From positions 1 to 41,876 of the forward strand of contig JANQMV010000024.1 in the NCBI GenBank assembly GCA_028279865.1: 41,876 bases of DNA. Reading direction: 5' to 3'. The position numbers were made by a program, and so were the translations under genes. Under the pieces are notes generated by a model. It saw nothing but the letters and a program-made list of their open reading frames with translations. It was not told the DNA's origin and did not search any database. Positions 1,758 to 41,702 of the stretch are shown here, one piece after another. The DNA is from Candidatus Altimarinota bacterium (GTDB taxonomy: Bacteria; Patescibacteriota; Gracilibacteria; JANQMV01). The stretch's first letter is position 1; the number at the start of each line of letters is the position of its first letter.

Positions 1758-3164
1758 ATGCTATTTGATCACATTTTTCGCGCCTATGACATCCGTGGAA
1801 TTTATCAGGAAGATTTAAATGAAGATACTGCGAGGTTAATTGGAAAAGGTTATGGAACTTATTTAATCAGAAATAATCCCCCCCCTAACTCCCCCTTGAA
1901 AAGGAGGAGAACCTTAGAAGTTGTTGTGGGAAGAGATAACCGTACGCATGGAGAAAGCCTGCAAGCGGCTTTGATTGAAGGAATTCGTTCGACAGGAATT
2001 AATGTAACAAATGTTGGTCTCGCCATCTCTCCCCTGCTCTACTTCTCAATCTGTGAGGGAGATTTTGACGGAGGAATTAATGTTACTGCCAGTCATAATC
2101 CGAAAGAATTCAATGGATTCAAATTACAAGGAAGAATGGCACATTCAATCTGTGGAGATAAAATTCAGGAGATCTTGAAGATTATCAAAAAAGAAGATTT
2201 TGAAGAATTTAAGGAAGAAGAAGGGACTCTTGCGGAAGGTAATTTCTTAACAGAATATGCAAATAAAATCAGCAGCATTGCTTCAATTGAGAATAAGCCG
2301 AAAATTGTAATTGATGCAGGAAACGGAGTTGCAGGCAAATTTGCTCCGGCACTTTTTGATTTGCTGGGGTGTGAAGTTGTTCCGCTGTATTGTGAATCAG
2401 ATGGGACATTTCCAAATCATCAGCCTGACCCGGAAGTTGAGGAAAATTTAAAGGATTTAAAAGCAAAAGTTTTGGCAGAAAAAGCTGACTTTGGGGTTGC
2501 CTTTGATGGAGACGGAGATCGTACGGGTATTGTAGATAGTGAAGGCAATCATTACCCGGCGGATTTATTAATTCTTCTCTTAGCCCGTGATATTCTAAGT
2601 CGTCATCCAAATACAAGTGTCGTCTATGATCTCAAAGCAACAGAAGTACTCAAAGAAGAAGTTATTAAATTTGGAGGTAAACCGGTTATGTCACCGACGG
2701 GACATTCTTTTGTAGAGGAATTAATGACAGAAACAGGCGCACTTCTCGGAGGGGAACTGAGTGGTCATATTTTTATTGCGGAGAATTACTATGGATTTGA
2801 TGATGCTTTCCTTGCTGCGGCAAAAATTTTGGAAATTATCACTAAATCTGGAAAGCCTCTCAAAGAACATCTTGCTGATTTACCACAGACGTATAACACT
2901 CCAGAAATTAAACTTGGTTGTGCGGAAGAACATAAGTTTAGAACTGTTGATAAAATCACAAAACATTTTGTAAATAAATACGAATGCCTAACGATTGACG
3001 GGGTACGAATTGATTTTGGTGAAGGTGCTTGGGGAATTTGCCGTGCTTCGAATACAAGCCCGAAGTTGACTCTTCGTTTCGAAGCAAAAAGTCCTGAAAG
3101 ATTAGAGAAAATTAAAGAGGAGGTTTTGGAGCATCTAAGAGGTTATGAGGAGATAGAGTTTTAA
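1758..3164 (+). CDS. Phosphomannomutase/phosphoglucomutase
   Basis: A 468-residue alpha-D-phosphohexomutase that interconverts hexose 6- and 1-phosphates (mannose or glucose), feeding nucleotide-sugar synthesis. Visible motifs are the N-terminal FRAYDIRG, the catalytic phosphoserine loop TASHNP (Ser112), the metal-binding loop DGDGDR (250-255), the sugar-binding loop GGELSGH (331-337) and a C-terminal phosphate-binding region. Length is normal for the family apart from an extra proline/arginine-rich stretch at residues about 40-52, where a dispersed C-rich repeat is read in frame (see 1878-1914). Start ATG, no Shine-Dalgarno; stop TAA. Substrate preference cannot be fixed from sequence alone. 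Confidence 0.93.
   Translation: MLFDHIFRAYDIRGIYQEDLNEDTARLIGKGYGTYLIRNNPPPNSPLKRRRTLEVVVGRDNRTHGESLQAALIEGIRSTGINVTNVGLAISPLLYFSICEGDFDGGINVTASHNPKEFNGFKLQGRMAHSICGDKIQEILKIIKKEDFEEFKEEEGTLAEGNFLTEYANKISSIASIENKPKIVIDAGNGVAGKFAPALFDLLGCEVVPLYCESDGTFPNHQPDPEVEENLKDLKAKVLAEKADFGVAFDGDGDRTGIVDSEGNHYPADLLILLLARDILSRHPNTSVVYDLKATEVLKEEVIKFGGKPVMSPTGHSFVEELMTETGALLGGELSGHIFIAENYYGFDDAFLAAAKILEIITKSGKPLKEHLADLPQTYNTPEIKLGCAEEHKFRTVDKITKHFVNKYECLTIDGVRIDFGEGAWGICRASNTSPKLTLRFEAKSPERLEKIKEEVLEHLRGYEEIEF
1878..1914. repeat. Family C C/G-run repeat inside the phosphomannomutase
   Basis: A run of eight C, a short TAACT spacer, five C, then a complementary GGAGGA arm. On the minus strand it resembles the intergenic copies at 17269-17300 and 31541-31581, which share the core GGGGGAGGTTAGGAGGGG type. 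It is translated as about 12 residues (NPPPNSPLKRRR) between the first helix and the strand ending VVVGRD, and it keeps the reading frame. Confidence 0.7.
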
Positions 3165-5190: not shown

Positions 5191-6438
5191 ATGTTTCGAA
5201 GAAGAAAAGCAGAAGAGTACCCCACTGAAGAAAACATTTACGGTGATTTTGAAGACGTAACTAGCCCCGAATGGAGCTGGGATATTCTTGCAAAAATCTT
5301 AGAAAGCCAAAAAGCAACTAAGAAAAAAATCTTAGTGATTATTACAGGTGGAACAATTGCGATGAAAAAACAAAGAGGAAAAGAAGGACTAATGCCAGCT
5401 GAGACACCTGAAGAAATACTCGAAAGTATCCCAAAAAAAATCAGAGACTTGATTGAGATAGACGTTGAATATATCTCCAATGAAGACAGTGTTGATATTG
5501 AAAGCCCCGAAGTCTCTTTAATCAGTCAAAAAATCCTTGAGAAAAAGGACGAATACGACGGAATAGTTGTTACTCACGGAACAGACAGAATGTCAGAAAA
5601 TGCTTCTAAAGTCGCATTTATGACCAAAGGTATTGATAAAAGTGTAATCTTCACAGGAGCTATGAAGGGGGCAGATGAGATAAATTTTGATGGTCCAGAT
5701 AATCTTAAAAGGGCATTGCTTGCGTCATTACATCCTGACCTAAAAGGGGTCTATGTTGCAATGCACCAAAGATTAATGCTTGCGGTACGTTCAATGAAAA
5801 AATTTGGAGAAATTGATGCCTTCAGATCCATAGATTCAGAAGACTGCGGAAGGTTTAAGAAAATCTATAAACTAAACTTGAGTTACACAGGTACTCTTAA
5901 AGACACTGAACCTGAGTATTTTGAAGAATTCAAAAATATTGAAGGATGTATTCAGCCAATTGACATGACGGTACTTGAGGACAACTACAGCCTGAAAAAA
6001 GCTTTCAATTCAGCTCTGGAAGATGACAAAGTCAAATTTATCATCCTAAAAGGATATGGAGACGGCAATCTTTCTTCTCCAGAAAAAAAACCTTGGTTAT
6101 TTAATAAAATTAAAGAGTGCAAGGACGCAAATAAAGTCGTCCTAGTAACTTCAGATCTTGAGAAAAAGTCAGCGGAATCACAGTACAAAGGAGGACAGGC
6201 AGCTTTGGCAGTTGGAGCAATTCCGGCTAATCACATAAATAAAGCAGCCCTAAAAGCAAAAATCTATGCACTAGTAACAAAGCATCGTTATTCAAAAAAA
6301 GGCTTATCGGATAGGGAGGTAGCCCAAAAAGATATAGAGATATATAATGACTTGGTAATAAATTTTTTCAAACAACATGTAGGAGAAGACTGTAACCTTC
6401 CTTCTAAAAGATTGGAATACCAACTTTCTTATTCATAA
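5191..6438 (+). CDS. Asparaginase / GatD-like amidohydrolase
   Basis: A 415-residue cytoplasmic protein of the asparaginase/GatD family, which releases ammonia from asparagine or, in archaeal GatDE, from glutamine for tRNA-dependent amidation. Catalytic elements are visible: TGGTI at 52-56 (nucleophile Thr), HGTD at 129-132 (Thr/Asp pair) and a lysine at 203 or 204 after RSM. About 45 residues precede the core domain, which is longer than type I asparaginases and recalls the N-terminal addition of GatD. No gatE is present in the window, so true amidotransferase function is unproven. It is co-transcribed with the upstream unknown gene. Stop TAA. Confidence 0.75.
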   Translation: MFRRRKAEEYPTEENIYGDFEDVTSPEWSWDILAKILESQKATKKKILVIITGGTIAMKKQRGKEGLMPAETPEEILESIPKKIRDLIEIDVEYISNEDSVDIESPEVSLISQKILEKKDEYDGIVVTHGTDRMSENASKVAFMTKGIDKSVIFTGAMKGADEINFDGPDNLKRALLASLHPDLKGVYVAMHQRLMLAVRSMKKFGEIDAFRSIDSEDCGRFKKIYKLNLSYTGTLKDTEPEYFEEFKNIEGCIQPIDMTVLEDNYSLKKAFNSALEDDKVKFIILKGYGDGNLSSPEKKPWLFNKIKECKDANKVVLVTSDLEKKSAESQYKGGQAALAVGAIPANHINKAALKAKIYALVTKHRYSKKGLSDREVAQKDIEIYNDLVINFFKQHVGEDCNLPSKRLEYQLSYS

Positions 6439-6488: not shown

Positions 6489-7511
6489 TTATCTTTCCTG
6501 GATTGTCTCCTTCACCTGAACTCCAAAATGCCGACCGGCTTCCTCCGTATAAGCCAAAACCTTATCACCCGGCTTAAGATGCGTAATCGAAAGCGGCTCA
6601 CCTTCCGGAGAAGTCAGGCGAATTGTTTCTGCGTTTTGCATAATCAGAGTTACTTCCCTCCCCTCCTTTGTCTTCGCCCGCACAAGCATCATCGGACGTT
6701 TTTCAATCTTATTACGACCGACAACAGCAACTTCTGTGTTCCCCTCTTTATCTACAACTAAAACTTCAGAACCTGATTTAAGCTCCATCATATACTGAGT
6801 CTTGTTATTCGGAATACGTACATAAGCATGTACCGCTCCGGCATTCACTCGAAATGGACGCGGATCACAGTAAGGCGATTCCACATTTTCATTGTAAACC
6901 AAGAACATCGCCGAAGAAGTATCGCCGGCTAAAATCCCCTTCCCCGGAGGAAGGATACTGCCTGTATCTACACAACAACGATCAGACATTGCCACAGGTT
7001 CGGTGCCAATAATTTCAGCCTCCACTAGTTCTAATTTCTCATTGTTAGATTCTCTAATCACCTTCGCGGTCTCTTTGATCTCTTGAAAATCATCCGTCTC
7101 AAGCAAAATTCCATCCGCCCCCTTTTCCATTGTCGTTAAAGCAATTTTTGCCTCCTCAGCAGATTTCACAGTCTGAATTAAGTTTGTTGTTTTAGAAATC
7201 AGATTTTCAAGCGGAATAATCGTCCAATCAGCTTGCCCTTCCTCTGTTTCTTTGTTTTGAATAATCACAGGTATTTTGCCACTCTCCGCAATAACTTTGT
7301 CTTCATCCTCTTTCCGGTTAATCTTCACGATCTTTACATCTTTACCCAAAATAAAATCACCATCCTCTGCAATCGTCTTAATTTTACTCAATTCATGCAC
7401 TTTCTGCGTGTCGCCTTTTTTTACTTGAACAGCATCCACACCACTTTCCAAAGCAGTCGTGATCAGCTTCTTATCAAAAGGATCCACCTTTACCCAAAAT
7501 ATTTTTTTCAT
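6489..7511 (-). CDS. 3-dehydroquinate synthase II (archaeal type)
   Basis: A 340-residue protein of the DHQ synthase II family (archaeal AroB', MJ1249 type). It shows the family's hallmark C-terminal half: AMSDRCCVDTGSILPPGKG, the PRPFRVNAGAVHAYV block and QNAETIRL, ending with RHFGVQVKE. Archaeal members use an aminodideoxyheptulosonate precursor and NAD to make 3-dehydroquinate, bypassing DAHP. A related enzyme (GriH) makes aminohydroxybenzoate. This is an unusual family for a bacterium, and no other shikimate gene is nearby. Start ATG; stop TAA. The family assignment is firm; the pathway role here is inferred. Confidence 0.88.
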   Translation of the reverse strand: MKKIFWVKVDPFDKKLITTALESGVDAVQVKKGDTQKVHELSKIKTIAEDGDFILGKDVKIVKINRKEDEDKVIAESGKIPVIIQNKETEEGQADWTIIPLENLISKTTNLIQTVKSAEEAKIALTTMEKGADGILLETDDFQEIKETAKVIRESNNEKLELVEAEIIGTEPVAMSDRCCVDTGSILPPGKGILAGDTSSAMFLVYNENVESPYCDPRPFRVNAGAVHAYVRIPNNKTQYMMELKSGSEVLVVDKEGNTEVAVVGRNKIEKRPMMLVRAKTKEGREVTLIMQNAETIRLTSPEGEPLSITHLKPGDKVLAYTEEAGRHFGVQVKETIQER

Positions 7512-11595: not shown

Positions 11596-12972
11596 CTAAA
11601 TCTTCCTCCTCCATTCATCAATCTTCTGCAAAGCATCCAAAGGAGTCAACGCATTAACATTAAGCTCCTTAATTTCTTCTTCAACTAAACTTGGTTTGCT
11701 TATAACTTTTTCAACAATTTTTGTTTCTCCAAAAATCCCCAGCTGTTCTGCCTTTTGTGCGACTTTTCCCAGTTCTTCTTTCTCAAGTTTACCCAGAATT
11801 TCCTGAGCACGCCTGACTATTTCCTTCGGTAATCCGGAAAGTTTCGCAACTTCAATGCCGTAACTTTTATCAACACCGCCTTTGATTATTTGATGCAAAA
11901 AGACAACTCCATCCGTTTTTTCGATTACCGCCATTGAAAAATTTTCCGCTGAGTCCAAACCTTTTATTAAATCATTCAGCTCATGGTAATGTGTTGCGAA
12001 AATTGTGTTTGCTTTGGTCTTGTCATGTAAATATTCTGAAATTGCCCAAGCAATCGAAACCCCGTCATATGTTGAAGTTCCTCTCCCGACTTCGTCTAAA
12101 ATGATGAAACTGTTTTTCGTTGCGTTACTTAAAATATAGGCTGTCTCCTGCATTTCCACCATAAATGTAGATTGTCCTTCAGAAAGATTGTCACTTGCTC
12201 CGACTCTACAGAAGATTTGATCCACCGGAGACATTTCGACTGAATCTGCCGGTACGAAAGAACCGATTTGTGCCATGAGAATTATTAGGGCATTTTGGCG
12301 TAAGTAAGTTGATTTACCCGCCATGTTTGGTCCGGTGAGGAGGATAAATCTTTGATCATCTGCCATGTTTAAGTCATTCGGTACGAAGTCGTCAGTTAAT
12401 TTTTCCACCACCGGATGTCTTCCGTTTTTAATCCTGAGTTTCTTTTCTTCGCTTAATTTAGGTCTGCTAAATCTGTATTTATGTGCGATTTCCGCAAAGC
12501 TATTTAAAATATCCAAGATCGCAACTTGATCAGCAGTTTGCTGGATTTTTTTAATTTCATGCATGACCTTTTCTCTTAATTCCAGAAAAAGCTTATATTC
12601 AAGTTCTTTAATTTTTTCCTCCGCTCCCAAGACTTTGTCTTCGTATTCTTTTAATTTTGGAGTAATATAGCGCGCTGCGTTTACCAAGGTTTGTTTGGTT
12701 TTATATTCTTCGGGAACTTTCTCGATTTGGCTACGTGGGACTTCGATAAAATAGCCAAAGACATTATTAAACTTGATTTTTAGCGTTGAAATTCCAGTGA
12801 GTTTTTGTTGCTCAATCTGATATTCCACTAAAAAGTCTTTGCCTCCGTTGGCAATTTTCCTCAATTCATCAAGCTCGACATTATATCCATCTCGAATCAT
12901 CCCTCCGTCCATAATCGTCAAGGGAGCTTCGTCTGTCAGAGCCTGATCCAGTAAGTCTATTATTGCTTGCAT
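11596..12972 (-). CDS. mutS: MutS C-terminal half, lacking the mismatch-binding domains
   Basis: A 458-residue ORF that matches bacterial MutS1 from about E. coli residue 400 to the end. It holds the second part of the core/lever domain and clamp, then a complete ATPase: Walker A TGPNMAGKST (213-222), signature NLSEGQSTFMVEMQ (262-275), Walker B FIILDEVGRGTS (289-300) and ATHYHEL. The last helices (TPLDALQKIDEW) are present. Domain I with the Phe-x-Glu mismatch wedge, domain II and the first part of domain III are absent. An in-frame TAA about 35 bases upstream of the ATG rules out a simple extension, and the NYN gene occupies the expected space. It is either a remnant or a special short MutS. 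Stop TAG. Confidence 0.85.
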   Translation of the reverse strand: MQAIIDLLDQALTDEAPLTIMDGGMIRDGYNVELDELRKIANGGKDFLVEYQIEQQKLTGISTLKIKFNNVFGYFIEVPRSQIEKVPEEYKTKQTLVNAARYITPKLKEYEDKVLGAEEKIKELEYKLFLELREKVMHEIKKIQQTADQVAILDILNSFAEIAHKYRFSRPKLSEEKKLRIKNGRHPVVEKLTDDFVPNDLNMADDQRFILLTGPNMAGKSTYLRQNALIILMAQIGSFVPADSVEMSPVDQIFCRVGASDNLSEGQSTFMVEMQETAYILSNATKNSFIILDEVGRGTSTYDGVSIAWAISEYLHDKTKANTIFATHYHELNDLIKGLDSAENFSMAVIEKTDGVVFLHQIIKGGVDKSYGIEVAKLSGLPKEIVRRAQEILGKLEKEELGKVAQKAEQLGIFGETKIVEKVISKPSLVEEEIKELNVNALTPLDALQKIDEWRRKI

Positions 12973-13071: not shown

Positions 13072-13575
13072 TTACTGGGCTCTTTTTTTGTATTCTAATT
13101 TTTTCTTTAAGTTACTCATAAAATCCAAATGATTTGCTGCTGCCTTTTTTAGTAAAGCTGAATAACGTTTTACATTCGGAGCCAAAACTTTTTCTAACTT
13201 ATTCTTTTTATTCAAATGCCTTACCAAACAAGCAAAATCTCCATCTCCCGAAACAATAATTGCTTTGTCATAGTCTGAAAAATCGATCATTGCCTGTAAA
13301 ACAAGTTCTGCATCAACATTACCTTTTATAGTTCCGTTTGAGTATTTTAAAATTTCTTTGAAAACCAAAATAAAACCGGCTTTTTGAAGTGAGTTATATA
13401 AATCTTGATTTTCTTCAAGATAGCCAATAAAGAGGTAAGCAACTTCAACTTGATATTTCTCTTTTAAATAAACCCTAAACCTCCTCCAATCCAAGCTCCA
13501 GCCCTGTCTTTTAATTTCAAGGTTTACGTTTTGGCTGTCGATAAAAGCATAATTTTTAGAACACCCTCTAAGCAT
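13072..13575 (-). CDS. NYN-domain (PIN-like) putative ribonuclease
   Basis: A 167-residue protein of the NYN/LabA-like branch of the PIN nuclease fold. Typical acidic positions are visible: YAFIDSQNVNLE near the start, GNVDAELVLQAM in the middle and IIVSGDGDFACLVRHL further on. These form the expected metal-binding site for RNA cleavage. No partner domain is present. It lies between elp3 and the truncated mutS on the same strand, where the missing part of mutS would be. Start ATG; stop TAA. The RNA target is unknown. Confidence 0.8.
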   Translation of the reverse strand: MLRGCSKNYAFIDSQNVNLEIKRQGWSLDWRRFRVYLKEKYQVEVAYLFIGYLEENQDLYNSLQKAGFILVFKEILKYSNGTIKGNVDAELVLQAMIDFSDYDKAIIVSGDGDFACLVRHLNKKNKLEKVLAPNVKRYSALLKKAAANHLDFMSNLKKKLEYKKRAQ

Positions 13576-28047: not shown

Positions 28048-31000
28048 TTAAACGACAGAGTCAGGACAAATTTTTCGATAATCACAAAACTGGCAAATCA
28101 TACTCCCGGGAGTAGCATTAAAATCACCCGCTTTAATTTTATCAATTACATCCCAAATTTCTTGTTTAGCTTCATTCAGGGTTTTTTCAGATCGCTCTGC
28201 TGATATTTTTTGATTATCTTTCAAAAAGTACAAGCTAAACAGGGTTGATTCCATCTTCATAAAATCTCTGGTCGCAATCGCATACAAAGAAAGCTGCAAA
28301 TCTTTTTTCATTCCTTTCTGTACATACGGACTAAGTTGTCCCGTTTTATAGTCAATCACCTCAAAAGTTCCATCGGGAAGCTTATCTATACGATCAATAC
28401 GACCGTTAATCATCACGTATTCTCCCTCTTCATTATAGAGTTTAATACGAAATGCTTCTTCAATTTTTTCCGGTATGATCCAATTTTTTTCATTAGAGTG
28501 ATAAAACTGCCTCAAGATCTCTTCAGCATTTTTGTAATAATCTTGCTCTTCTGATGAATCTCGATAACCGCTTGATTTCCAATTTTTCTTCAAATAAAGC
28601 TTTAGAGCTTCAAAACTGGGAATTTGCTTTTTCTTTTTTATTTCACGATAGAAGTCTTTGAGTGCGTCATGAACCGCCGAACCGAAATTTGCAGCCACTC
28701 CCGGTTCTGAAGGAATTCTAAGCAAGTAACGATAATGGTAGAACTTGGGACAACGCTTAAATGTATTAATTTGCGTGTAAGAAAGATAGTTATTAAATAA
28801 GTTCTCCGGTTTTTTTTCTTGTGATGGTGTGGATTTTTTAACTGTAAACTTTGACTCCAAATCGTCTAAAATTGCTGCATTCTGTTCAAATTTTCTAAAT
28901 TCAATTTGGGGATTTTCTATAATTTCATCTAAAAACGAAGAAGATTTCCACTTCCTCGTCCCACTGTTATAAGTTTCTGAATAAGACAAATAGAGGTTTT
29001 CTTTAGCACGTGTAATTGCAACGTAAAAAAGCCTACGCTCCTCTTCTGTGTGAAATTCTTCCGAGATATTTATTTCTTTGACCAACTCATCCGCCAGTAC
29101 AATCGCCTCTCGCCTATTGATCGAAGGAAACTTATTGTGCACTAGGGCAGGCACAAAAACAGTTTTAAATTCTAAACCTTTTGAAGCATGAATCGTCATG
29201 ATCTTTACAGCATCTTCATCGTTGGATTCTGCTGTTTTAGGGTTATCACCAGCCTCAATCTGAACTTTTAAATAATCAATAAAAGGTAAAACTGTCTTCT
29301 TTTCGTTTTGTTTTTCAAAGGTAGCAATTCTCTGAAAAAATTCATTCACATTTCCACTAAACAATTGACAAACTGATATTCCTTGCTTTTGAGCTATCTG
29401 ATTTAAATGGTTTTCAAAGTTCACTTCTTTCAAAAAATCCCAAAGCAATTGTCCCACAGACATAGTCTGGGATTTTTCGATGTAGTTGTGGAGAAGGTTA
29501 ATAAAGTCGTTTAAAAGTAAACTTGTCTTTCTAGCTTGTCCAGAATCTATACTTTGCTTATTGCCTAAACTTCCCAAACCTTGAGGTTCAGACTCCGGAC
29601 TTTTTCTTGCTGCGCTCGAAGCCGGAATGACGGACTCTTTTTTACTTTCAACTTTTAATTTTTCACTTTCAAAATTCTCACCCCCCTCTACATCTCCCTT
29701 CGCTTCGCTTCTGGGAACTGTATCTCTCGCAACTCGCGGCTCTAGGTTAACAGCTTGTTCTCCAAACATATCAAGAGTCTCACTCCCCTTTTGTTCCTTG
29801 CGTAATAACTGGAGATATTTAAAGAGAGAAAGGTTCTTCTTGCGAGCTTCTTGTAAATATGTAACTAAATCGATTTGCGCGAATTTAAAATAACGACTTT
29901 GCATCAAGGCAAACAAATCAATGTCATCACTTGGATTAGCTAAAACCGTCAAAAAACTTATCAGATCTTTCACCTCCGGCTGAAGAAAAAGTCCTCGATT
30001 ACCTATAAATTGATAAGGAATTCCCTTACGATCAAGTTCTCCCAGGAAAATATCAGCACTGGCACGATTACGCACTAAAATTGCAATATCTGAATAGTTC
30101 TTAGTTGGTAGTTGGTGGTTATTAGTTAAATTGGTCGTCATTCTGGCTTGTCCAGAATCTGCACCTTTCTTACTGCCTAAATCTCCCAAACCTTGAGGCT
30201 CAGATTCCGGACTTTTTCTTGCTTCGCTCGAAGCCGGAATGACGGACTCTTTTTTGTTATGATTTGTCATTCGTAATTCATCGTTCGTAATCGAAAGAAT
30301 TTCTTCAGTAATCCGGTCTGCTTCGCTTAAATCATCCTGAAACTGCCAAACTTGTATTTTATTATTCTCAACGGTTCCTTTGGCAGAGAGTTTTTTATTG
30401 ATGTTTAATTTAGTCTCAAGTCGATTTGGATTATTATTTTGAATACTTGCATAAGCCAAATCCAAAATATTTTGAGAAGATCGATAGTTCTCATTTAAAA
30501 CAAAGTTTTTTGAATCCGGATAATTCTCTTCAAATTGAAGAATATTGGAAAGTGACGCACCTCTGAATTTATAAATCGCCTGATCGTCATCTCCTACAAC
30601 CATCAAATTATTGTGTTCATTCGCCAGCATTTCCACAAGCTTATTTTGTGCAAAATTCGTATCCTGAAATTCATCCACCATAATGTACTGATAAAGCTTT
30701 TGGTACTCAGCCAGAATATTTGGACGCCTGCGAAATAAATCCAAGACAAGATAAATTAGCCCGCCAAAATCAATTTTACTTTCTTTGAGCAAAAGATCTT
30801 CGTAGATTTGATAAGCCTGTGCCAACTCTTTTTCCTTTTTGACAATTAAGTTAGCCTGACTTTGAAATTCTACAATAGGAGGTTCTTTTTTACTTTTTCG
30901 TTTCTTTTTTGCTTCTTTTTGTTCCCATTCCGCTGTTAATTCATTGCAAATTTTTTCAACGCTCAAACTTCTTGCATACTTTAAATAAATTTCGGGAGAA

Positions 31001-35359: not shown

Positions 35360-36469
35360 TTATTTAATTAACATTGCATCACCAAAACTAAAAAAACGGT
35401 ATTCCAAATCGACCGCTTTTCTGTAGGCTTCAAAGACAAATTCCTTCCCTGCCAAAGCACTCACAAGCATAAGCAGAGTACTTTTGGGCAAATGAAAATT
35501 CGTCAACAAAGCATCCACAATTTTAAAATCATAAGGAGGATAAATAAAAATATCCGTCTCCCCTTTTTGCGCGATTAAATTTCCATTTTGATCCAAAGAA
35601 CTCTCCAAAACACGCATAGAAGTTGTCCCTACTGCAAGCACTTTTTTGCCTGCTTTTTTAACCGTCTTAATTTTATCAACCAAAACTTGGCTGATTTCAT
35701 ATTTTTCAGAATGCATTTCATGTTCTTCAATCTGATCAGCTTTAACCGGTAGAAATGTTCCCAAACCAACATCCAAACGTACAAAACCCAGCTCAACTCC
35801 TTTTTGTTTCAATTTATTCAGATATTTTTCCGTAAAATGTAATCCTGCTGTCGGAGCCGCAACAGAACCAAGTTTATCGCTATAAACGGTTTGATAACGC
35901 TCTTTTTCTTCTAATTTTTCTTTGATATAAGGAGGCAAAGGCATTTCTCCTTGTTCATCTAAAAACGGATAAATATTTGACTGATTAAATTGAATTAAAC
36001 GTGTTCCATCTTTATTAATTTTTAAAACTTTACCTGAAAATTCCGGGCTGAATTTAATTTCAACACCTTCTTTTAATTTTTTACCCGGTTTAACTAAACA
36101 CTCCCAAGCCACACCTTCTTGCAGGCAGCTAAAGCTGTCTGTTGAACGGCATGCTTTAGCTTCCCGATGAAAGTGCTGCTTTTGTTTGAGCTCTTTTTCA
36201 GCCTTAGAAACTTCTTTCAGGAGAAAAACTTCCACCTTTTTAGCATAATTTCTGATTTCACCAAAAAGACGCGCCGGTAAAACACGCGAATTATTCATCA
36301 CAAGTAAATCTCCCGGATCAAGATAAGCGATCAGATTTTCAAAAAGATCATCATGAATCACATGATCTTTTTTGTTTAGAACCATCAACCTTGAAGCCGT
36401 TCGCTCTTTCAAGGGTTTTTGAGCAATCAGTTTCTCAGTTAAATGATAATCAAAATCAGCTAATTTCAT
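35360..36469 (-). CDS. queA: S-adenosylmethionine:tRNA ribosyltransferase-isomerase
   Basis: A 369-residue enzyme that adds the epoxycyclopentanediol ring of queuosine in tRNA wobble position. Motifs: the start FDYHLTEKLIAQKPL, DLLVMNNSRVLPARLFG, the AAPTAGLHFTEKYL core, VGTTSMRVLESS and the end YRFFSFGDAMLI. Residues about 88-119 (ELKQKQHFHREAKACRSTDS region) are extra relative to the family. They correspond to a dispersed palindromic repeat read in frame (36126-36162) within a region that is a loop in the family. Start ATG; stop TAA. Confidence 0.95.
   Translation of the reverse strand: MKLADFDYHLTEKLIAQKPLKERTASRLMVLNKKDHVIHDDLFENLIAYLDPGDLLVMNNSRVLPARLFGEIRNYAKKVEVFLLKEVSKAEKELKQKQHFHREAKACRSTDSFSCLQEGVAWECLVKPGKKLKEGVEIKFSPEFSGKVLKINKDGTRLIQFNQSNIYPFLDEQGEMPLPPYIKEKLEEKERYQTVYSDKLGSVAAPTAGLHFTEKYLNKLKQKGVELGFVRLDVGLGTFLPVKADQIEEHEMHSEKYEISQVLVDKIKTVKKAGKKVLAVGTTSMRVLESSLDQNGNLIAQKGETDIFIYPPYDFKIVDALLTNFHLPKSTLLMLVSALAGKEFVFEAYRKAVDLEYRFFSFGDAMLIK
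36126..36162. repeat. Family D element, in frame inside queA
   Basis: CAGCTAAAGC ... GAAC-x2-CATGCTTTAGCT, the same ends as in 31479-31525. It is read as REAKACRSTDSFSCLQ in QueA. The frame stays open through it. Confidence 0.75.
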
Positions 36470-41537: not shown

Positions 41538-41573
41538 CGACGAAGGCGACGTTACGTAACGTCGCCTTCGTCG
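41538..41573. repeat. 36-bp perfect palindrome
   Basis: CGACGAAGGCGACGTTAC joined directly to its reverse complement, with no spacer, centred between 41555 and 41556. It is GC-rich in an AT-rich gap and has no T-run, so it is not a simple terminator. It adjoins the family A element at 41579. Confidence 0.95.
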
Positions 41574-41578
41574 CTAGT

Positions 41579-41702
41579 GTCATCCTGAGCATAATCGAAG
41601 GATTCCTTTACACAAGTTAATATTCAAATAACTTAGTATAGCCATATTGAATTCTGTAAAACCCAAAATTTAGGCTACAGATTCCAGACAAGCTGGAATG
41701 AC
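41579..41702. repeat. Family A element (GTCATCC...GGAATGAC)
   Basis: GTCATCCTGAGCATAATCGA at the left and ATTCCAGACAAGCTGGAATG plus AC at the right (inner stem ATTCCAG-ACAAG-CTGGAAT). It fills the space between the palindrome and hrcA. No CIRCE element was seen here. Confidence 0.7.

Follow-up and report, generated by a model that had tools for sequence, protein, structure and literature searches.

Palindromic repeats that colonize genes in frame came to notice first in Rickettsia and then in REP-rich bacteria belonging to several phyla. Rickettsia palindromic elements (RPEs), as portrayed in two papers that cite the original reports, are palindromic repeats inserted in frame in unrelated genes and also found between genes, adding tens of residues to the host proteins (PMC3733652, PMC10969869, citing Ogata et al., 2000, 2002). 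REPs carrying a CGTC tag have been grouped into families CGTC-1 to CGTC-4, which include dRS3 of Neisseria and the Rickettsia elements RPE-4 and RPE-6 (Di Nocera, De Gregorio and Rocco, 2013, PMC3733652). These units have at one end the unpaired CGTC tag or its TGTC and CCTC variants, a stem of 8-9 bp with complementary AT at the first two positions, a loop of 4-5 nt and a short unpaired tail that is mostly CCA; head-to-head dimers predominate and no transposase gene is associated with them (PMC3733652). They have been described in Proteobacteria, Chlorobi, Bacteroidetes, Spirochaetes and Thermotogae, and intragenic copies occur in repair genes, including UvrD/REP helicases and uvrA or uvrB genes with two insertions (PMC3733652). 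Clusters of intragenic REPs are known from R. conorii, Thauera and Opitutus terrae, with double insertions in a single repair gene (uvrA or uvrB), and those of Thauera and R. conorii encode 43-82 residues (PMC3733652). Among the papers searched, none reported REP elements in Patescibacteria or the candidate phyla radiation.

The case described here lies in a stretch of 41,876 nucleotides (the window) from a small genome, probably of the Patescibacteria. A long ORF on the minus strand encodes a helicase with Pfam matches above cut-offs to UvrD-helicase, UvrD_C and PDDEXK_1 (Table 1), and its helicase and nuclease motif residues show no variation across the alignment. As the first-pass annotation had reported, two copies of a 119-nt sequence stand in this ORF as a direct repeat, 90% identical, spaced 612 bp apart and at an identical codon offset. 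The repeat is thus real, but the palindromic unit is shorter than the 119 bp then given to it: GTC...GAC spans 107 bp, and the last 12 bp, GGACTCTTTTTT, are a common flank. The encoded peptide was said not to be conserved, and 9 of the 12 differences between the copies are indeed nonsynonymous and 3 synonymous (pN/pS 0.91, a ratio resting on these few changes). A six-frame check over the 119 bp found one stop-free frame in each copy, the one in use, and the element strand folds more stably than all shuffles (z -5.2 and -3.7 for the two copies). TGA is used as a stop in 27 genes of a 441-kb sample; in the class relatives G023, G033 and G057 (L073, L079, L068) ORFs are much longer with TGA read as glycine (code 25). 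This stop usage, together with the named helicase homologs, points to class Gracilibacteria as the probable place of the genome within the Patescibacteria. Elsewhere in the window (11596-12972), a MutS-like ORF of 458 aa seems to be without its N-terminal half, and an NYN-domain-like ORF lies directly upstream of it.

Table 1. Coordinates of the helicase gene, its repeats and related features (positions refer to the window unless prefixed by an L number).
Feature	Position	Strand	Basis or remark
Host gene, UvrD/Rep-type helicase with C-terminal PD-(D/E)XK nuclease domain, 1138 aa	28048..31464	-	Pfam
Repeat block copy A, 119 bp, encoding KKESVIPASSAARKSPESEPQGLGSLGNKQSIDSGQARK	29525..29643	-	direct repeat, frame analysis
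Repeat block copy B, 119 bp, encoding KKESVIPASSEARKSPESEPQGLGDLGSKKGADSGQARM	30137..30255	-	direct repeat, frame analysis
Head-to-head REP dimer in copy A, 107 bp	29525..29631	.	covariance model arms 29525-29555 (+) and 29583-29631 (-)
Head-to-head REP dimer in copy B, 107 bp	30137..30243	.	covariance model arms 30137-30167 (+) and 30195-30243 (-)
12-bp flank GGACTCTTTTTT outside palindrome, copy A	29632..29643	.	
12-bp flank GGACTCTTTTTT outside palindrome, copy B	30244..30255	.	
Composite island 1, in frame: ITNDELRMTNHNKK - REP dimer - TTNLTNNHQLPTKNY, ~aa 392-457	30094..30291	-	absent in 17 homologs; pLDDT
Composite island 2, in frame: NLEPRVARDTVPRSEAKGDVEGGENFESEKLKVES - REP dimer, ~aa 564-646	29525..29775	-	absent in 17 homologs; pLDDT
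Single intergenic arm, GTCATTC family	41672..41702	-	covariance model, 44.3 bits
RAYT genes, each with its own hairpin pair	L063:1375-1938, L064:1258-1806, L065:1489-1986, L066:1288-1788		
Second element ending in GGTTCAAGTCAGAGACATTGAACC	L250-L261; L244:18232-18390; L249:7959-8117; L245:14072-14193		all detected copies genic, sense
Second element ending in GGTTCAAGTCAGAGACATTGAACC	L248:7-193, 5455-5587, 6505-6637, 13391-13455		all detected copies genic, sense

The element comprises two arms set head to head, each composed of GTC, the hairpin ATTCYGG-loop-CCRGAAT and a CT tail (unit consensus GTCATTCYGG-loop-CCRGAATCT), with NNAACC following the tail. The stem is 7 bp long, its position 2 an invariant T-A and its position 1 kept as A-T in 17 of 30 arms. 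Covariation within the stem supports the hairpin: across these 30 arms 91.9% of cells are paired, double changes number 20 versus 5.1 in shuffled arms, the exchanges are of the kinds C-G/U-A and G-C/C-G, and every slid register scores worse. Loops measure 5 nt in most arms and 14-31 nt in others; both helicase dimers combine a low-end arm (+) with a 5-nt loop and a high-end arm (-) with a 23-nt loop, the latter encoding SVIPASS(E/A)ARKSPES. A covariance model recovers 60 arms from the genome at E<=1 (47 at E<0.01), of which 52 carry GTC, as TGTC in 27 and CGTC in 14, and the consensus pattern with at most 3 mismatches has 31 matches, versus 0 for its reversed control. Pairs lying within 110 bp of each other are head to head in 15 instances and never TT or HT, and no consistent target-site duplication was found at these 15 dimers (0-4 nt). 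Family copies had also been placed between genes elsewhere in the window, where the model finds one further arm; genome-wide, many copies lie outside the helicase, mostly in intergenic DNA and also in at least seven other genes. Among 58 other genomes of the class only 2 have any arm match, and the 22 arms of the relative G018 include none in an ORF of at least 110 aa. Other CGTC-like repeats are present at L065 about 2101-2210, L006:1348 and L045:1744 (GTCATTCCGAGCGCAG..., GTCATTCCCGCGAAGGCGGGAATC, GTCATTCCAGACTTGATCTGGAATC), so several repeat families coexist.

Eight long genes hold 12 of the arms (four in the helicase, two in PyrK and one each in PriA, RsmF, TrpCF, PBP1C, a LamG protein and an unassigned 481-aa protein), and 48 of the 60 fall outside confidently assigned genes. 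Since ORFs occupy about 82% of the 441-kb sample, genes hold far fewer copies than their share, a depletion that would be expected if insertions into genes were mostly lost. Where the arm and gene share a strand, all loci read the inner half of the arm in the same frame, and arms on the strand opposite to the gene likewise have one common frame, except in PBP1C, whose arm is a weak match in a different frame; since the other frames are often closed, this regularity is weak evidence. The same element peptides are present in unrelated proteins. The earlier description of a repeat family that colonizes genes as RPEs do is upheld, neither of the outcomes set to refute it having appeared, but its 'keeping a frame open' is better understood as survivorship, for one of six frames is open and the genic insertions that remain are those using it.

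The helicase inserts do add loop sequence that has no counterpart in the family, as first proposed, but they are of about 66 and 82 aa and not of about 40, because further repeat-like pieces flank the element. They are missing from eight orthologs of the same class and from nine named homologs that are more distant (among them Dojkabacteria, Doudnabacteria and Berkelbacteria); loop 1 has 87 residues here versus 26-56 in these 17 homologs, and loop 2 has 110 versus 16-42. The closest genomes in this comparison are of the same class, and the named homologs came from a contig search with the helicase alignment, a query with the single helicase having given no match. Some homologs have moderately longer loops at these sites that are unrelated in sequence, and the sites thus tolerate length change. 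A search of 288 class genomes for the element peptide found it in its own genome only. In an AlphaFold model both inserts score a pLDDT of about 25-28 and lack secondary structure between better-scored helices, with pLDDT below 50 at aa 399-454 (island 1) and 563-643 (island 2). This supports predicted disorder of the inserts; their detailed position is not supported, the model being weak overall (mean pLDDT 58.8, pTM 0.35, 7 sequences).

Both helicase inserts are composite islands (66-82 aa) in which the REP dimer is joined by other pieces: one also carries NDELRMTN and LTNNHQLPTKNY, the other NLEPRVARD...GDVEGG and SEKLKVES. Self-comparison of the 441-kb sample shows that island pieces are found again in further genes and, in part, between genes. 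Similar stop-free islands are found in at least 18 genes, including PriA, RecG, UvrA, UvrC, RsmF, MurC, MurD, TrpCF, PyrK, PrmC, ArgS and IleRS, with modules stacked in PriA (2 islands), RsmF, MurC, MurD, RecG, TrpCF (2), PrmC and ArgS. Their contents include CGTC-like arms, CCCCCT...AGGGGG modules, a GGTTCAA...TTGAACC palindrome and short AT-rich modules. Alignments to PDB structures break at the islands of PriA, RsmF, PyrK, MurD, MurC and TrpCF. Eleven islands contain no stop in 667 codons (product of per-island shuffle probabilities ~1e-17), a count with some circularity in it, since the islands had been sought within ORFs. Two other ORFs of the window may be mentioned, a phosphomannomutase-like one (1758-3164) containing NNPPPNSPLKRRRT, possibly a small CCCCCT-type island, and a QueA-like one (35360-36469) in which an additional KAEKELKQKQHFHREAKACRSTDSFSCLQEG stretch may be another island.

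All detected copies of a second element lie in genes. The palindrome GGTTCAAGTCNGAGANNTTGAACC occurs 12 times (control 0), all 12 in long ORFs and in sense orientation, at sites in IleRS, UvrC (2), TrpCF, RecG, PriA (2), anthranilate synthase I, a GHMP kinase, UvrA (2 adjacent) and one unassigned protein. It forms the end of a longer element that also contains CCCCCTT...GGGGG and further hairpins, and a profile of this element finds 7 copies in the 441-kb sample, each of them in a gene and in sense orientation; hosts of the GGTTCAAGTCAGAGACATTGAACC-ending element include MurD, besides UvrC, UvrA, RecG, PriA, TrpCF, anthranilate synthase I and IleRS. A search of 287 other class genomes did not find the element in full, and the matches there were limited to 21-54 nt. 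Sense frames are open in each copy and an antisense frame in only one, so the orientation can be survivorship. Survivorship does not explain the missing intergenic copies, given that REP arms are mostly intergenic, and selection acting after blind insertion would be expected to spare more of them; blind insertion alone into DNA that is 82% coding would put ~14 islands all in genes with a probability of 0.82^14 ~0.06, which is not improbable. It is conceivable, and we propose it tentatively, that some repeat lineages are specialized for life in coding sequence, namely that this multi-hairpin element (~125-190 bp), gene-only and sense, helps to build composite islands that lengthen housekeeping and repair proteins.

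For the GTCATTC family we consider it most probable that a short, non-autonomous hairpin repeat inserts neutrally or selfishly and is filtered for an open frame and a tolerant loop, with no conserved function of the peptide. The element, two CGTC/TGTC-tagged hairpins head to head around a spacer, encodes no transposition protein; some activity would copy and insert it, and insertions that break genes would then be removed, genic ones surviving only where they are in frame, stop-free and in a tolerant loop. That it moves as a discrete mobile unit is something we infer, as the dimers have no consistent target-site duplication and no mobilizing enzyme is linked to them. In the helicase, the element would have entered an already length-variable loop in the one stop-free orientation and frame, leaving the gene open and giving the protein a loop that is predicted to be disordered and that it presumably tolerates. 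The 12-bp flank suggests that one copy derives from the other and, since the spacer too is common to both, the second copy was most likely derived from the first. The same loops also take up other repeat modules, and composite in-frame islands, recurring in at least 18 genes, are the outcome.

Mobilization of these REPs by RAYTs (Y1 REP-associated tyrosine transposases) encoded in the genome is unlikely. Four distinct RAYTs score above the NCBIfam cut-off, but each gene is flanked by its own, different hairpins and none by GTCATTC arms, and G018 has its arms with no Y1_Tnp match; for these reasons no role is assigned to the RAYTs. CGTC REPs without transposase association were also reported by Di Nocera et al. 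(PMC3733652). A hairpin at window position 41539-41574, GACGAAGGCGACGTTACGTAACGTCGCCTTCGTC, is similar to those adjoining the RAYT of L063. We also doubt that selection maintains the inserts as a functional extension of the helicase, perhaps in the form of a disordered loop that binds a partner. REPs do recur in replication and repair genes in the literature (PMC3733652), and islands here are found in UvrA, UvrC, RecG and PriA as well as in the UvrD-type helicase, but the preponderance of nonsynonymous changes between the copies, the sharing of peptides among unrelated proteins and the absence of the inserts from all homologs examined argue against such a function. Intragenic duplication only, in which one ancestral insert was copied within the helicase gene with no mobile history, would account for the common spacer and flank, yet it explains the second copy and not the first, and for the family as a whole it is refuted by the arms and half-elements in seven other genes and at dozens of intergenic sites; we give it very little credence. 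Hardly any weight falls to removal of the islands before or during translation, as intron-like or bypass elements. Hairpins abound in the islands, and the confinement of the second family to genes is striking, but every island examined lacks stops and preserves the frame, as removal would not require, and the window matches no Rfam family.

In-frame colonization is seen here with many hits in replication and excision-repair genes and with several families stacked per loop, and it provides natural experiments, open to counting, in how disordered loops are added to proteins. It raises the question of why repeats have settled in the same repair genes across unrelated phyla, and it carries a warning for annotation that such peptides are repeat DNA and not domains. 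Like the RAYT/REP system (REPtron), the genome has hairpin pairs as short non-autonomous repeats and it encodes RAYTs; unlike the GTAG type, the tag is GTC and no link to the RAYTs was found, their flanks holding other hairpins. With CGTC REPs the family shares an unpaired CGTC/TGTC tag (41 of 60 arms), an AT-first stem, a 5-nt loop in most arms, head-to-head dimers with variable spacers, some units in genes, DNA repair genes among them, and the absence of a dedicated transposase (RAYTs being the type searched), whereas its stem of 7 bp rather than 8-9, its CT rather than CCA tail, its many loops of 14-31 nt and a lineage outside the reported phyla set it apart. From its sequence features it is accordingly classed as CGTC-like, on tag, dimer geometry and lack of a transposase, and not placed in CGTC families 1-4, from which its stem length and tail differ. 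The parallel with RPEs, compared by description, is apt, RPE-4 and RPE-6 being CGTC-tagged REPs themselves (PMC3733652); in-frame insertion in unrelated genes, with further arms elsewhere, is common to both, and the joining of several unrelated repeat modules in one loop is particular to the present case. The clusters of R. conorii, Thauera and Opitutus terrae resemble the helicase in double insertion into one repair gene and, in Thauera and R. conorii, in encoded length, but they are described as clusters of REPs, whereas the islands here mix CGTC-like arms with other modules. Gene-resident REPs were thus already on record; what appears to be new is the composite mosaic, together with the gene-only family and the probable patescibacterial setting.
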